From contig JAHEGY010000007.1 of the NCBI GenBank assembly GCA_024644875.1, positions 1 through 64,000 on the forward strand: 64,000 bases of DNA, read 5' to 3'. Below, piece by piece: positions 52,933 through 59,962 of the stretch. Numbering within the stretch: position 1 is the first letter of the stretch; each line of letters begins with the position of its first letter. The notes below the pieces were generated by a model. It was not told the origin of the DNA. It saw only the letters and a program-made list of their open reading frames with translations, and ran no database searches. Both the position numbers and the translations under genes were made by a program. The DNA is from Cyclobacteriaceae bacterium. GTDB taxonomy: Bacteria > Bacteroidota > Bacteroidia > Cytophagales > Cyclobacteriaceae.

Positions 52933-53562
52933 TTACACAAGGGCCTTGATCTCAAAGGCGTAATACAACAGCCTGAACCCAAATAAAATCAATCCTATAC
53001 CTACAGACCGGTTGAGTATCTTCATAAACCTGGGTGTGATCAAGTCACGTAATTTATTGGCAAGATAAGATTTTGTAATATCAGCACTTAGAACCATGAA
53101 TATTACACCGGCATAGAACAGAAATGCCTGATCAAATGAATAATGAAGTTCTATGGTGATCATCCCGGCAACGCCAAGCCAGAATATCAATATAAAAGGG
53201 TTAATGCTATTCAGGATAAATCCTTTCAGAATTTTACGGAAGTAATTGTTTGATACAAAATGAGGCTGCTTCAGGCCTCTTTTCGGCACAGGTTTTAGAA
53301 AGGTAAATAATCCAAAGCCCATCATGACCAATGATCCAAAAAGCCCTAAAACAAACTTTACCTGGATATTTTCAGAAAGAAATGATACACCGGTATAAGT
53401 AAGGAACATATAGAAGGAATCACTCAAGGAAACGCCAATAGCCATAAATACACCTGCTTTAAAACCTTTCTCAATACTGGTCTGGAGCAAAGCAAAAAAT
53501 ACGGGTCCCAGTAAAAAAGAGAGTAAAAGTCCAAAAAGTAATCCTTTGTACAACTCAACCAT
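52933..53562 (-). CDS. LysE-family amino acid exporter
   Basis: 209 residues with six hydrophobic segments. GLLFGLLLSFLLGPVFFALL near residue 6 and TSIEKGFKAGVFMAIGVSLS near 28 are the LysE/RhtB signature, and LNSINPFILIFWLGVAG near 116 is the second conserved piece. It would export amino acids or related solutes through the inner membrane; the substrate is unknown. Convergent with cdaA, 5 bases between stops. Confidence 0.9.
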   Translation of the reverse strand: MVELYKGLLFGLLLSFLLGPVFFALLQTSIEKGFKAGVFMAIGVSLSDSFYMFLTYTGVSFLSENIQVKFVLGLFGSLVMMGFGLFTFLKPVPKRGLKQPHFVSNNYFRKILKGFILNSINPFILIFWLGVAGMITIELHYSFDQAFLFYAGVIFMVLSADITKSYLANKLRDLITPRFMKILNRSVGIGLILFGFRLLYYAFEIKALV

Positions 53563-53728
53563 TACAACAGAAGTGCATTTTTATAAATTCCGGAATTAAG
53601 TTTGCCAAAGATCCAAAAATTCATAGATCTAAAGTAAATAATAAGGATTAAAAACCTGATTACGGAAATATCAATTTATTTTTATAAATATATTTAAGTA
53701 TGGGTAAATATAGAATTATTATTTAATT

Positions 53729-54397
53729 ATGAATATTGCGGATAATATAAATAAATATTTAAAAGAGATCGGTGATAGGAACTGTAAATTGGTCGCCATC
53801 AGCAAGACCAAGCCAGTGGATATGATTCGGAACGCTTATGATTCAGGTCAAAGAATTTTTGGCGAAAATAAGGTTCAGGAATTAGCCGATAAATACCCGC
53901 AATTACCCAATGATATTCAATGGCATATGGTTGGACATCTTCAGTCCAACAAAGTGAAATATATAGCCCCCTTCGTACATCTGATTCATTCTGTGGATAG
54001 CATAAAATTGTTGAAGGAGATTGAAAAGCAGGCTGCAAAGCACGACCGCATCATTTTCTGTCTTCTGCAGGTTCATATTGCTGAAGAAGAAACCAAGTTC
54101 GGCCTTACGGAAGAAGGACTCTGCCAGGTATTGGATGAGGTTGTAAAATCAGGATTTGAACATGTTAAAATTAACGGTTTAATGGGCATGGCCACCTATA
54201 CTCCGAATGATGAACAGATACGCAGGGAATTCCGGTATTTAAAAGATTTGCTGGATACAGTCTCATTGAAATACCAGTATGGCTCAATAGATCTGGCCGA
54301 ACTATCCATAGGCATGTCCGGGGATTATAAGATTGCCATGGAGGAAGGATCAACCATGATAAGGATCGGGACCGGGGTATTTGGAGCCCGGCATTAA
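53729..54397 (+). CDS. YggS/PLPBP-family pyridoxal phosphate homeostasis protein
   Basis: 222 residues, a PLP-binding TIM barrel. Lys26 in LVAISKTKP is the expected Schiff-base lysine; FGENKVQELADKYP near residue 43, WHMVGHLQSNKVKYI near 64, and LSIGMSGDYKIAMEEGSTMI near 192 are family motifs. YggS proteins buffer PLP and affect amino acid and keto acid pools without a defined reaction. Monocistronic, upstream of a 221-base gap with a 19-base tandem repeat. Confidence 0.95.
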   Translation: MNIADNINKYLKEIGDRNCKLVAISKTKPVDMIRNAYDSGQRIFGENKVQELADKYPQLPNDIQWHMVGHLQSNKVKYIAPFVHLIHSVDSIKLLKEIEKQAAKHDRIIFCLLQVHIAEEETKFGLTEEGLCQVLDEVVKSGFEHVKINGLMGMATYTPNDEQIRREFRYLKDLLDTVSLKYQYGSIDLAELSIGMSGDYKIAMEEGSTMIRIGTGVFGARH

Positions 54398-54448
54398 TTA
54401 CCTTCAAAATTCAGGATTTATGAGATCCAGGTAATCTTCCTTATAATT

Positions 54449-54486
54449 CCAGGGCACTAAATCAAAACCAGGGCACTAAATCAAAA
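54449..54486 (+). repeat. Perfect 19-base tandem duplication
   Basis: CCAGGGCACTAAATCAAAA occurs at 54449-54467 and 54468-54486 without spacing or mismatch. It lies 133 bases ahead of the TonB receptor start. Perfect identity points to a recent event or to selection for a doubled binding site. Confidence 0.9.
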
Positions 54487-54618
54487 ATTGTAGCAAATTC
54501 TGAATATTAATTACATTTATAATTAGGGGGATATATCCTGCCTGAAGTCTATAATATAGGAACCCTGTTTACAGCCTATACCGATTTAAAGTGTTTTTTA
54601 AGATTTAAGCCTGTGTAA

Positions 54619-56736
54619 ATGAAAACATTCATTGCGAGTCTATTTTTGTTATTCATATTCATGTCGCTGCCGGTAAAGGGCCAGGATGTAGAGAAAACAA
54701 TCTTACTTGATTCTATTATTATTGAAGACCAACTCCTGGATGAAGTGAGTTATGTGGCATCCAGCTATGTCACCAGGAAAGATCTTCAGAACCAGCAGAT
54801 CCGGGATGTTGGGGAATATTTGCGTTCTATACCCAATGTTTCAGGCATTCGTCGAGGTGGAGCTAATCTGGACCCTGTGGTGCGTGGATATAAATATAGC
54901 CAGTTGAATGTATTGCTCAACAACGGGGTAAAGATTGAGAATGGCTGCCCCAACAGGATGGACCCCGTAACAGCCCGGATTGAAACGGAGGATATCGGCA
55001 ATATTGAAATTATAAAAGGACCTTTTTTGTTAAAATACGGGCCCTCTTTTGGAGGGGTCATTAACCTTAAATCAGAAGTACCACGGCCCTCCGATCAATT
55101 TGAAATACATGGGAATGCCCAGGTAGGCTTTGAATCGAACTGGAATGGGGAGAAATATCACGGATCCTTGTATGGCGGAGGCCGTAAATTCCAGTTCATG
55201 GTGGCCGGAGGATATAGAAATTATGGCAATTATAACAGCGGCTACAGGGAAGGTATGGAAACAGAAGTTAAATCATCCTTCACCAAGTATAATTACCTGG
55301 CGAAACTGGGATATAGTTTTAAGCCAAACCAGCAGTTGCTGATATCATATGACGGGATCCATGGGAGGGATGTATTGTATCCTTCCCTGCCGATGGATGA
55401 GAAATCCGATGATACCCATATTTTCGGATTGGATTACGAAGGTAAAGATCTTAGCCCAGTGCTAAAAAGTATTGAGGCTAAGTTATACCATTCGGATGTC
55501 CATCATGTTATGGATAACAGCCGCAGACCTTCGGCAGAAAATATGTTGATGGTCGCTGATGTCAACTCTTCAAATACCGGCGGAAGATTCGTTACAACAT
55601 TCCAGTTTGCAAAACACCGGTTCCTGACAGGCCTGGATTACGAGCACATTATGAAGGACGGTGCACGGACAGGTACAATGGAAATGATGGGTACCATATC
55701 CACCAAAGTTTCCAATCTATGGCTTGATGCACTCATCAGGAATACCGGAATTTTTGCTGAATACCATACATATTTCTCATCATATGAATTAAATGCAAGC
55801 ATTAGGGGTGATTTTAACAATGCAACCTCGAGTGATACGCTGGAAGTCAGCTATGAAGGTATTGATTATTTTAAAGATGTTGATTCGGAATTCTTTAACC
55901 TGAGTTTCAGCGTTGGGATTACCAAAAAGATATCCTCCAACCTGGATATTTCCCTGGCTTTCGGCCGTGGAACCAGGAGCCCGAACATGCTGGAGCGATA
56001 TATAAAACTTTTACCTGTAGGTTACGACCGGTATGATTACCTTGGTAATCCTCAGCTACAACCTGAGACCAATAATGAGATCGATCTTACATTTCAATCA
56101 AATTTCAGGAATTTCGGGAGTATGTACTTTAATTTCTTTTATTCATATGTACAGGAGTATATTTACGCGAACTTATTACCTCCTACAGTGATCATGCCCC
56201 AGTCACAGGGTGTTCTGGGAGTTAAGCAATTTGTTAATGTAGATCACATCACTTCCACAGGATTTGAATTCGGTTACAATTCACCCCAACAGTATAAACT
56301 CGGGGGAAGTATGATAGCTGCATTTACTTACGGCGTGATACCGGAAGTGACCAAATACATTATTTCAGATGGGGAAGTAGTAGATGCAGTACAAATTACA
56401 AATGATGCCCTGCCTGAGATCCCGCCTTTTGAAACAACCCTGTCCATGTTCTATAAATTCCTTAACAGTAATCTTATTCCAACGCTGAAATTGAGAATGG
56501 TAGCACCTCAGCGCCATATCTCACAGGCATTCTATGAGGAAGAGACGCCAGGATTTGCCTTGTTGGATTTCTCAATAAGGTGGAAATTTGCGAAATTTAT
56601 GGAGTTGAACACAGGAATATCAAATATATTTGATCGTGCCTATTACGAGCATTTAAACCGAAGGATTATAGGATCTAAAGAAAATTTGTATGAGCCGGGA
56701 AGGGTATTCTTCGCATCCATATATGCACATTTCTAA
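54619..56736 (+). CDS. TonB-dependent receptor, OprC-like copper receptor
   Basis: 705 residues. Signal peptide (residues 1-21, ending PVKGQ); no CarboxypepD-like entry domain. The plug (about 38-165) has VGEYLRSIPNVSGIRRGG and NIEIIKGPFLLKYGPSFGGV. The barrel ends AFTYG ... FFASIYAHF with terminal Phe. Within the plug, GCPNRMDP holds Cys110 and Met114, a CxxxM, and HHVMD in the barrel holds His296 and Met298, an HxM; together they match the copper-binding site known for OprC, at a comparable spacing. Copper uptake is therefore likely. The downstream MbnP-like lipoprotein gene, overlapping or nearly so, supports this. Confidence 0.9.
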   Translation: MKTFIASLFLLFIFMSLPVKGQDVEKTILLDSIIIEDQLLDEVSYVASSYVTRKDLQNQQIRDVGEYLRSIPNVSGIRRGGANLDPVVRGYKYSQLNVLLNNGVKIENGCPNRMDPVTARIETEDIGNIEIIKGPFLLKYGPSFGGVINLKSEVPRPSDQFEIHGNAQVGFESNWNGEKYHGSLYGGGRKFQFMVAGGYRNYGNYNSGYREGMETEVKSSFTKYNYLAKLGYSFKPNQQLLISYDGIHGRDVLYPSLPMDEKSDDTHIFGLDYEGKDLSPVLKSIEAKLYHSDVHHVMDNSRRPSAENMLMVADVNSSNTGGRFVTTFQFAKHRFLTGLDYEHIMKDGARTGTMEMMGTISTKVSNLWLDALIRNTGIFAEYHTYFSSYELNASIRGDFNNATSSDTLEVSYEGIDYFKDVDSEFFNLSFSVGITKKISSNLDISLAFGRGTRSPNMLERYIKLLPVGYDRYDYLGNPQLQPETNNEIDLTFQSNFRNFGSMYFNFFYSYVQEYIYANLLPPTVIMPQSQGVLGVKQFVNVDHITSTGFEFGYNSPQQYKLGGSMIAAFTYGVIPEVTKYIISDGEVVDAVQITNDALPEIPPFETTLSMFYKFLNSNLIPTLKLRMVAPQRHISQAFYEEETPGFALLDFSIRWKFAKFMELNTGISNIFDRAYYEHLNRRIIGSKENLYEPGRVFFASIYAHF

Positions 56737-57550
56737 AAATCTGCCAGCAATTATCTTAATTGTTCTGTGGGGCTTGATGCTCCTGACAGCATGCAGTGAT
56801 GAACCTGAGGGAGGGGCTGAACCGGAACCTGAGACGGGTCACATAAAATTTGCATTTACCCACAATGTCGATGATCAACCGATCCAACTGGATAGGATGA
56901 TGTATGTGAATTCTGCAGGGAATCCTTATGAGATCAATGAAGTCATGTACTTTATCAGTGATGTCATATTATACAAGGAAGGAGGCCAGGGTTTATTAAT
57001 CGATGAGTGGAAGGATATTCATTACATAGAGTTGGAAATCCCCTCCACACTAACATGGGAAGTATTTGATGACATTCCTGCAGGAACCTATGATTCGATT
57101 ACTTTTGTTTTTGGTATTCCGGAAGAAAAGAACGAATCTTTCATGTTCGTCAACCCGCCTGAAGACAAAATGATGTGGCCTGATATACTGGGTGGAGGCT
57201 ATCATTATATGATGATCAACGGAAAATGGCAGGATGAGACCGAGGTAGAACAATTCTATAATTTCCACCTGGGTATCGGACAGTTGTACAAAGGAGATGA
57301 AATTGATTTTGATTCCATCTATGCCTATGTCCAGAACTATTTTACAGTAAGCCTACCGGGTTCATCTTTCGAGCTGGGAAAAGATCAGACCCGGGAGATA
57401 GAGATCATTATGAATATAGAAAGCTGGTTTGAAACACCCCATGATTTCGATTTTAATTACTGGGGGGGTGCGATAATGGAGATTCAGCCAGCCATGAGAA
57501 TGGGTATAGAAAACGGGCATGACGTGTTTTCCATAGGATCAATAAAATAA
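56723..57550 (+). CDS. MbnP-like lipoprotein
   Basis: 275 residues from the ATG at 56723 (14 bases inside the receptor gene); an ATG at 56690 is also in frame but adds no useful signal sequence. A lipoprotein signal ends at Cys24 (GLMLLTACSDE). The following beta domain (GHIKFAFTHNVDDQPIQLDR, YEINEVMYFISDVILY, IPAGTYDSITFVFGIPEEKN) fits the MbnP-like family, whose members bind copper and often pair with di-haem enzymes or TonB receptors. No MbnH di-haem partner is present. The overlap with the OprC-like receptor suggests one transcript and a joint role in copper handling. Confidence 0.82.
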   Translation: MHISKNLPAIILIVLWGLMLLTACSDEPEGGAEPEPETGHIKFAFTHNVDDQPIQLDRMMYVNSAGNPYEINEVMYFISDVILYKEGGQGLLIDEWKDIHYIELEIPSTLTWEVFDDIPAGTYDSITFVFGIPEEKNESFMFVNPPEDKMMWPDILGGGYHYMMINGKWQDETEVEQFYNFHLGIGQLYKGDEIDFDSIYAYVQNYFTVSLPGSSFELGKDQTREIEIIMNIESWFETPHDFDFNYWGGAIMEIQPAMRMGIENGHDVFSIGSIK

Positions 57551-57568
57551 ACATAACCTGTGGTCAGA

Positions 57569-57967
57569 CTATTTGCCTGATTTGGGAATGATATTGGCGA
57601 CAATAAAAAGCTGCTCTTTTTGATTGATCGAATTCGATAATATAGTCACTACTTTATTCTGTCGTCCTATCTTGCCTGTTGAATTGAATACAATTTTAAT
57701 CTTTCCACCTTCCCCGGCCTTTATGGGTTCTTTTGGCCAGGTTGGGGCAGTGCAGCCACATGTCGTCACGATCCTGGATATCACCAGCGGTTCTTTGCCT
57801 GTATTGGTGAATTTGAAATGGTGTTCTACCTTGTCTCCCTGGATGATATCTCCAAAATCATGTTTCGTCTCATCAAATTTAAAATCCGGTCCATTCTCCG
57901 CCTGTGCATAAACACCTGCGGAAGAAAGCAGTACCACAATAAGATAAAACAATGAATTCCTGATCAT
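57569..57967 (-). CDS. DUF1573-domain exported protein
   Basis: 132 residues. A signal peptide (residues 1-21, ending GVYAQA) precedes a single Ig-like ASH/DUF1573 domain, FDETKHDFGDIIQGDKVEHH near residue 31 and the conserved IVTTCGCTAPTWPKEPIKAG near 66, ending in FIVANI. The two cysteines in TTCGC are typical of the family. Function unknown; common in Bacteroidota periplasm or surface. Stops 19 bases from the convergent MbnP-like gene. Confidence 0.92.
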   Translation of the reverse strand: MIRNSLFYLIVVLLSSAGVYAQAENGPDFKFDETKHDFGDIIQGDKVEHHFKFTNTGKEPLVISRIVTTCGCTAPTWPKEPIKAGEGGKIKIVFNSTGKIGRQNKVVTILSNSINQKEQLFIVANIIPKSGK

Positions 57968-58009
57968 GAAAATTTGTATTTCAATTTAAAGATACGAATA
58001 ACCAGCGTA

Positions 58010-59407
58010 TTAGGTAAAAAAGCTTTCACTGAAATTCAGGAGATATAACTCTTTTGTTGCCCTCGTGATACCCGTATAAAGCCACCGGAGATAAGAAATG
58101 TCAACAGATTCGGCCTTCAGGTAACCCTGGTCAAGGAATACGATCGGCCATTGTCCTCCCTGGGATTTATGACATGTTATGGCATATTTGAATTTTATCT
58201 GAAGTGCATTCAAATATGGGTCTTCAGCCATGGCCTGATTAAACTCCTTTTTTGTTATACCTTCATATTGACTGGCGACATTTTCATATAATTCTTTATT
58301 TTCTTCATTTGTCATAGAAGGAGTTGGTGCTGAAAGCGTGTTTAATATTACCTTTGCTTCAATATCGTGATGGTCCGGGTAATCAAGCAGCCTCAAGGTC
58401 AGATCAGCAAACCTCAGTCCATGCCGGTCTTCAGTATTGGAAATTTTCAGGACCTCGGCGAAATCGCCATTCGCCAGAAATCCGGCCTCAGAATCTTCCC
58501 CGAGCCAATAATAATTGTTCTTTACAATCATAATAAAGTCACCGGCATCGATTTCATCCTCAAAGAATAAAAGATTCCTCCTGATAAACTGATTATACAT
58601 ATTGGCCTGCTTGTTGGTTTGACATATTATTATGCTATCCTCCATGCCAAATTTCTCATATGCATATCGGAGGCCATCCTCCAGTTTATCACTTTTCATT
58701 TTGAAAACATCCCTGAATGATCTTGAATTAAACTTGATCTCTAAATTATCCAGGCTGATCTTTTCCCTGAGGTCAGTTGCATTGGACAATATCCCCGAGT
58801 CCTGTTCCTGACGGACAACATCTTTTAATTCATGCTCAAGAACCATTAATTTATACCTTAGCTCGAGGTTTTCCTTGTCAAGCGCACCGCTGTATTCCTG
58901 CCCCACAGGTGGCAATTGAGCAGTATCACCAATAAATACGATCTTATTCGATGGGTCTTCAAAAACGAAACTGGTAAGGTCTTTAAGCAATCCTGACCTG
59001 CCGAATTGCTGATCATCATAGATCATGGAAGATTCATCAATAAAAAAGATCGTGTTTTTCCGATAATTCTTAACCCTTTTAAAGCGTAACTCTCCGGTAT
59101 TCTTATCTAATACAAGTTTATAAATGATCTTATGTATGGTAAAAGCCTTTCTCTGGGAATAAGAAGATAACACCTTGGCGGCTCTTCCGGTTGGAGCCAA
59201 CAACATATATTTGTAATTAAAGAGAGGCAAAATCTTAACTAAGGATGAAATTATTGAAGTTTTACCGGTACCTGCATAACCTTTTACAAGAAAGGTGTCC
59301 GGCCCATCTTCTGACAGGAAGCGGTCGAACAGTTTAAACAGATCCTGCTGGTCTCTGGTTGGACTATAGGGGAATTTATTTACAAGTATTTCTGAAATTT
59401 TTGGCAA
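58010..59407 (-). CDS. RecD-like/Pif1-type DNA helicase
   Basis: 465 residues. Walker A is GYAGTGKT at residues 43-50, Walker B FIDESSMI near 121, FIGDTAQLPPVG near 157 (motif III), and the C-terminal UvrD-like part has KYAITCHKSQGGQWPIVFLD near 412 and YTGITRATKELYLLN near 446. Lacks the N-terminal domains of RecD2, so it is the compact form seen across Bacteroidota. Probably a 5'-3' helicase acting in repair or recombination; the partner is not known. Confidence 0.92.
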   Translation of the reverse strand: MPKISEILVNKFPYSPTRDQQDLFKLFDRFLSEDGPDTFLVKGYAGTGKTSIISSLVKILPLFNYKYMLLAPTGRAAKVLSSYSQRKAFTIHKIIYKLVLDKNTGELRFKRVKNYRKNTIFFIDESSMIYDDQQFGRSGLLKDLTSFVFEDPSNKIVFIGDTAQLPPVGQEYSGALDKENLELRYKLMVLEHELKDVVRQEQDSGILSNATDLREKISLDNLEIKFNSRSFRDVFKMKSDKLEDGLRYAYEKFGMEDSIIICQTNKQANMYNQFIRRNLLFFEDEIDAGDFIMIVKNNYYWLGEDSEAGFLANGDFAEVLKISNTEDRHGLRFADLTLRLLDYPDHHDIEAKVILNTLSAPTPSMTNEENKELYENVASQYEGITKKEFNQAMAEDPYLNALQIKFKYAITCHKSQGGQWPIVFLDQGYLKAESVDISYLRWLYTGITRATKELYLLNFSESFFT

Positions 59408-59470
59408 ATCCTTGAATTAATTTCAAACTTTATATGTTTTAATCTATGGAATATTAACCATAATTCTTAG

Positions 59471-59962
59471 ATGGAAGAAAAGATAATTGAAAAATTTGGG
59501 AATAAGTTAAGGGTAAGGGTATGCGGCATCTTAATTGAAAAGGGAAAGATCCTGTTAATCAGACACAAATCACTTGGTAAAAATGGCGTGCTATGGGCAC
59601 CTCCCGGCGGGGGAATGTTATTTGGTGAGCGTGCTGAAGAAACGATTAAACGTGAGTTTAAGGAGGAGACGGGATTGATGATAAAAGTAGAGCGCTATTT
59701 ATTTACACATGAATTTCTTAATCCACCATTGCATGCCATTGAACTTTTTTTTGAGGTAAGCCGAATTGGAGGGGAGTTAAAAACAGGATATGATCCAGAA
59801 ATGAGCAAAAATGAACAAATTATAACCAAAGCGGCATATTTGGATATAGATCAGTTAAGAGAAATACATCATGATTCCATTCATAATGTGCTCAGGAAGG
59901 TGAATAACTTAAAAGAATTACTTTACATGGATGGATATGTAAAATTTGAAGAATTTACTTAA
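59471..59962 (+). CDS. Nudix hydrolase
   Basis: 163 residues. The Nudix box runs from Gly47 to Leu69 (GGMLFGERAEETIKREFKEE opening) and keeps the REFKEETGL core with all metal-binding glutamates. It would hydrolyse a nucleoside diphosphate linked to another group; the substrate is not predictable. Starts a plus-strand series that continues to coaD, but with a promoter in the 70-base gap after it. Confidence 0.92.
   Translation: MEEKIIEKFGNKLRVRVCGILIEKGKILLIRHKSLGKNGVLWAPPGGGMLFGERAEETIKREFKEETGLMIKVERYLFTHEFLNPPLHAIELFFEVSRIGGELKTGYDPEMSKNEQIITKAAYLDIDQLREIHHDSIHNVLRKVNNLKELLYMDGYVKFEEFT

Follow-up and report, generated by a model that had tools for sequence, protein, structure and literature searches.

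An OprC-like TonB-dependent receptor and an overlapping MbnP-family lipoprotein gene in Cyclobacteriaceae: a probable copper-acquisition unit that recurs in Bacteroidales

Main Finding

A pair of overlapping genes encoding an OprC-like TonB-dependent receptor and an MbnP-family lipoprotein was found in the window (the whole stretch of 64,000 nucleotides that was analysed), and its recurrence in related genomes suggests a compact copper uptake route. The two products probably act as one translationally coupled outer-membrane copper-acquisition unit, in which TonB-dependent import would be aided by a surface lipoprotein. Parts of this picture were known before: an OprC-like receptor with the same CxxxM–HxM motif, also from Bacteroidota, was named in 2024 in the flavobacterium Bizionia argentinensis (PMC11213822), and in Proteobacteria copper operons headed by CruR contain receptors of the OprC type as well as MbnPH-like genes (PMC9426467). 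As far as the literature examined goes, what appears to be new is the pairing of receptor and MbnP as a two-gene unit in Cyclobacteriaceae and Bacteroidales, the presence in those genomes of a separate MbnP2–MbnH locus, and the recurrent association between OprC-like receptors and lipoproteins across the phylum.

The Receptor and Its Copper-Site Residues

The features of the receptor gene are as follows.

54619–56736, + strand: OprC-like TonB-dependent receptor, 705 aa (stop included), with a PF07715 plug and a PF00593 barrel; OprC is the best PDB relative
54946–54960, + strand: plug CxxxM, with C110 (codon 54946–54948) and M114 (codon 54958–54960) on OprC C143 and M147
55504–55512, + strand: barrel HxM, with H296 (codon 55504–55506) and M298 (codon 55510–55512) on OprC H323 and M325
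55393–55395, + strand: Met259, on OprC Met286; invariant in the family alignment

In a phmmer search against the PDB, the OprC structures 6fok and 6z8q matched the receptor with an E-value of 2e-40, the next PDB family being the haem receptor PhuR (E = 1e-7). The alignment with OprC, which the preliminary description had proposed, placed CPNRM of the window receptor on C143–M147 and HVM on H323–M325, matching one to one the four copper-site ligands of the OprC crystal structures (PMC8610252). The expectation that both halves of the OprC copper site are kept at a comparable spacing was thus borne out, the distance from the plug Cys to the barrel His being 186 residues in the window receptor and 180 in OprC. 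In the methionine track, Met259 fell on Met286, a Cu(I)/Ag(I) ligand in OprC (PMC8610252), and Met311 on Met343, within loops that aligned loosely. Counts of methionines at 311, 354 and 356 at first looked clean when set against the presence of a lipoprotein partner, but they were dropped as a marker of such a partner, given that partnerless receptors also have methionines nearby and that the loops align loosely.

The Cys, Met, His and Met ligands were invariant in a 12-row family alignment reaching 21% identity, and all four were kept in about 75 intact family receptor rows, with locus L017 as the only exception. Since unrelated TonB receptors from the same search carry A/S or Q/S at the plug ligand positions, this ligand set is more than a chance resemblance. 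OprC-like receptors with CxxxM–HxM are widespread in Bacteroidota. The receptor of L017 (1489–3828, − strand), which sits on a long branch, is a natural variant of the copper site, with Gly where the ligand Cys would be and with Met, His and Met retained.

With the OprC/NosA equivalog profile TIGR01778 (NCBIfam) the receptor scored 237 bits (233.9 bits in the genome search), about half of a cut-off of 472.45 bits, and its next profile matches were haem receptors. Judged by score, it is a divergent relative of OprC, OprC-like but outside TIGR01778. It shares with OprC/NosA the plug CxxxM, the barrel HxM, a similar distance between the two motifs and the plug-and-barrel fold, and perhaps some of the methionine track (Met259 on Met286); it differs in its lower profile score and in belonging to a separate clade (54–61% identity) with a downstream MbnP gene, whereas OprC has been described without a lipoprotein partner. 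When the receptor model, itself weak, was submitted to Foldseek, ranks 1–26 were all OprC chains. The two AlphaFold2 models, built from input alignments of 8–9 sequences, had mean pLDDT values of 57.5 and 51.9, and the plug of the receptor model lay below 50, too low for the geometry of the copper site to be read.

The MbnP-Family Lipoprotein and the Locus

The features of the second gene are as follows.

56723–57550, + strand: MbnP-family lipoprotein, 275 aa (stop included), PF20243
56792–56809, + strand: lipobox LTAC with Cys24, then SDEPE, resembling Bacteroidota lipoprotein export signals
57176–57178, + strand: Trp152 (MMWPD), on the first W of WxW in OB3b MbnP (7l6g)
57266–57268, + strand: His182 (FHLG), on HVG of 7l6g; candidate copper ligand

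The start of the MbnP gene and the stop of the receptor gene share an overlap of 14 bp; an alternative in-frame ATG lies at 56690, and the start at 56723 yields a normal lipoprotein signal. The naming of this gene as an MbnP-like lipoprotein in the preliminary description was correct: in addition to the lipobox, the PF20243 score was 92.3 bits (Pfam gathering cut-off, 27). With TIGR04052 it scored 29 bits against a cut-off of 140 bits, so that by these scores the protein is a member of PF20243 outside TIGR04052. The MbnP group profile recovered 7l6g as a PDB relative. Frataxin CyaY, the sole PDB match with phmmer (E = 0.006–0.03), was judged a chance match, and a fold search with a weak model returned pilin-like matches only, with TM values of about 0.2.

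Trp152 was conserved in 70 of the 70 MbnP sequences in which that column is filled and His182 in 69 of 70. The WxW motif reads WPD in the window protein, with the first W kept and the second lost; this loss was rejected as a mark of an MbnH-free MbnP, the MbnP2 proteins beside MbnH-like genes being WPx as well. The protein resembles OB3b MbnP of Methylosinus trichosporium (7l6g) in belonging to PF20243, in being exported and in having Trp152 on the first W and His182 on HxG. It differs in being a lipoprotein, in the WPD sequence, in the lack of an adjacent MbnH and in being paired with an OprC-like receptor instead of a methanobactin receptor.

Downstream of MbnP lies a convergent DUF1573 gene, and no di-haem gene was found downstream of MbnP at the locus. 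The other neighbours on both sides are genes that we take, from reading them, to be housekeeping genes. An Rfam search of 53000–59500 gave no match, and no leader ORF of the CutF/CruR type (CxxxC, C-terminal PP) was found upstream of the receptor, nor any matching one in the window genome. In the intergenic DNA upstream of the receptor (54450–54487), a 19-bp unit (cagggcactaaatcaaaa plus one base) is present in two head-to-tail copies.

Distribution in Bacteroidota

A clade-specific search of named genomes identified eight loci with 54–61% identity, one in Cyclobacteriaceae SH-MAG193 and seven in Bacteroidales/Bacteroidetes MAGs; clade members are mostly metagenome-assembled genomes. The MbnP neighbourhood survey that had been proposed at the outset found MbnP next in line in seven of these eight loci, those of SH-MAG193 and of six of the seven Bacteroidales/Bacteroidetes MAGs (the pair being seen in L104/L107 and L109–L114); in clade member L108 no MbnP gene adjoins that of the receptor. 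No di-haem gene was present in the flanks examined of the eight clade loci. Within a phylum sample of 395 genomes, 138 had an OprC-like receptor (E ≤ 1e-60) and 97 had an MbnP match; where both occurred, with a receptor of at least 300 bits (33 genomes), the two genes lay within 3 kb of each other in 18, always on one strand.

Three arrangements were distinguished: receptor followed by MbnP, as in the window; receptor alone, mostly preceded by a small leader ORF; and leader ORF, YtkA-domain lipoprotein and receptor, to which two subclades add MbnP and an MbnH-like di-haem gene (MbnH-like meaning that TIGR04039 was the best match, below its cut-off). In a maximum-likelihood tree of 73 receptors, the YtkA-partnered receptors all fell in one half, whereas the window clade lay in the opposite half, among partnerless receptors, and the window pairing was separate from the two receptor–MbnP–MbnH clades. 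Because the branches are separate, the receptor–MbnP neighbourhood has probably formed more than once, being gained (or kept) on each of them. This separate-branch pairing, together with the CruR-headed proteobacterial operons (PMC9426467), provides good evidence that the functions of OprC-like receptors and MbnP belong together. Those operons form one class in which both OprC-type receptors and MbnPH-like genes are found; the window locus differs in having neither leader ORF nor MbnH and in lying in Bacteroidota.

Small ORFs of one family precede the receptor in 40 of 51 OprC-like loci. Examples are L013 617–997, L012 3855–4226 (− strand), L091 2575–2940 and 6174–6554 and L109 6299–6691, with many more loci. 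The encoded peptides, of about 120–150 aa, have an N-terminal hydrophobic segment, the pattern C.NK..P...CxGxC and two C-terminal prolines, often as FHPP; no Pfam or NCBIfam match was obtained for the family. They fit the CutF-like copper leader ORFs described previously (PMC9973294) and look like a Bacteroidota counterpart of CruR, with FHPP replacing RAPP; copper-related leaders were missing from Bacteroidota in an arrest-peptide survey restricted to RAPP/RGPP (PMC12992588). As leader ORFs of the CutF/CruR kind are a hallmark of copper operons, they were counted in favour of the copper-acquisition reading.

Other genes accompany the receptors of related loci. In 33 of the 73 tree loci (L016, L018–L025, L034, L043, L044, L046–L048, L056 and L087–L103), the gene before the receptor encodes a Met/His-containing lipoprotein of about 260–310 aa that has a YtkA-like domain and may also capture copper. 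In several Bacteroidales clade members, small proteins with Cys/His-rich tails (for example GESCHQHEAHH), presumably of the NifX/NafY family as judged by reading their sequences, are encoded upstream of the receptor, either immediately before it or a few genes away (L108 1620–2006, L109 1948–2331, L110 6540–6938 and L114 6552–6947).

A Possible Di-Haem Partner Encoded Elsewhere

The preliminary description had stated that no di-haem partner follows and had proposed a compact import route. The first statement holds at the locus and fails for the genome: contig C237 of the window genome (L105 9856–13453) carries a second MbnP and after it, in succession, two distinct MbnH-like di-haem genes, with no receptor. 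In each of the nine clade genomes an MbnH-like gene adjoins a second MbnP gene, away from the receptor, the di-haem gene encoding about 390–430 aa in SH-MAG193 and the seven Bacteroidales/Bacteroidetes genomes. The receptor/MbnP/MbnH set looks split and not reduced. The gene pair is compact, as proposed, and conserved. Since di-haem genes are absent from the locus but present in the genome, its compactness does not have to imply that it works without MbnH. According to work in PNAS from 2021, the first W of WxW in MbnP is reportedly turned into kynurenine by MbnH, copper binding depending on that change. Trp152 is invariant and aligns with the W that MbnH oxidises, so the window MbnP may be a substrate of MbnH acting in trans.

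Proposed Mechanism and Alternatives

In the mechanism considered here, a lipid-anchored and probably surface-exposed MbnP would capture copper outside the cell and raise its supply at the receptor, which would accept the metal at an OprC-type site formed by C110 and M114 of the plug and H296 and M298 of the barrel wall. TonB energy would then drive copper through the receptor to the periplasm, where chaperones would pass it to a haem-copper oxidase, and Trp152 may be oxidised by MbnH-like di-haem enzymes whose genes lie at another place in the genome, which would set the copper affinity of MbnP. A COX1 gene for a haem-copper oxidase, a possible copper client, is present in the window genome. 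NosZ was discarded as a general copper client, being absent from the window genome and over its cut-off in three of the nine clade genomes. A precedent for capture and hand-over is provided by BtuB–BtuG of Bacteroides, in which a surface lipoprotein captures scarce vitamin B12 and passes it to the receptor (PMC10404256); receptors with a capture lipoprotein are thus an established arrangement in Bacteroidota. Both systems pair a TonB receptor with an adjacent lipoprotein, which in the window has a candidate surface export signal; the window lipoprotein differs in being of an unrelated family with another presumed substrate.

Counted in favour of the copper-acquisition unit were the ligands, the Foldseek result, the recurrence of the pair, its position on separate tree branches, the leader ORFs of relatives, SDEPE, the BtuB–BtuG precedent, W152 and H182, and the oxidase; counted against it were the sub-cut-off TIGR01778 and TIGR04052 scores, the lost second W, the absence of a local di-haem gene and leader ORF, L108 and the low-pLDDT plug. 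With both sides weighed, the reading as a whole is favoured with some reserve. A further reading, put forward tentatively, is that MbnP caps the OprC-type receptor and hands over a bare copper ion, with its kynurenine supplied in trans by MbnH from the MbnP2–MbnH locus. If true, it would be a metal-ion counterpart of BtuB–BtuG.

An alternative that we regard as unlikely is that MbnP is anchored to the outer membrane from the periplasmic side and serves as the first periplasmic chaperone or store for ionic copper that the receptor imports alone. MbnH-type enzymes are usually periplasmic, which agrees with such a location, and many receptors of the family stand alone. OprC itself functions without a lipoprotein partner (PMC8610252). 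Against a periplasmic MbnP, the sequence SDEPE after Cys24 resembles SDDDD and SDDFE, export signals proven to send Bacteroidota lipoproteins to the cell surface (PMC5080379); the match is only approximate, and the resemblance is weaker in the Bacteroidales orthologues, which have CKNDTP or CKEDDT instead, a point that favours the periplasmic location. The surface position of the analogous kynurenine-containing copper protein CorA also argues against it: CorA and MopE are surface copper proteins with kynurenine in the site and a di-haem partner, CorB/SACCP (PMC3912023). By description they are like the window system as proposed here (surface copper protein, kynurenine and di-haem enzyme), and MbnP has been reported not to be markedly similar to them in sequence (PMC3621798).

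The substrate of the receptor might instead be chelated copper, held by a chalkophore or in some small organic complex, that MbnP binds or strips, in keeping with the first discovery of MbnP in methanobactin operons beside TonB receptors (PMC3621798) and with the import of chelated copper by CrtA, another copper receptor (PMC12914433). This is improbable: the four-ligand OprC site for the bare ion is intact, CrtA and OprC fall in different sequence clusters (PMC12914433), and the neighbouring genes that were read included none of chalkophore type. Most improbable is a receptor for zinc, haem or another substrate with an MbnP neighbour unrelated to copper, since the haem receptors among the next profile matches, the metal site of ZnuD at a similar place (PMC8610252) and the sub-cut-off TIGR04052 scores of the clade MbnP are set against the OprC copper set of Cys, His and two Met and against related loci that combine the MbnP neighbourhood with MbnH and copper-type leader ORFs.

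Significance

Very few outer-membrane copper importers have been characterised in detail, most of them from Proteobacteria. The OprC-type site is spread through Bacteroidota, where it is repeatedly tied to exported lipoproteins, MbnP in the clades described here and a YtkA-domain lipoprotein in others. The two-gene form of the window is small enough to ask whether a TonB receptor can receive a bare metal ion from a surface lipoprotein, and it also allows one to ask whether MbnH acts on MbnP proteins from other loci of the genome.
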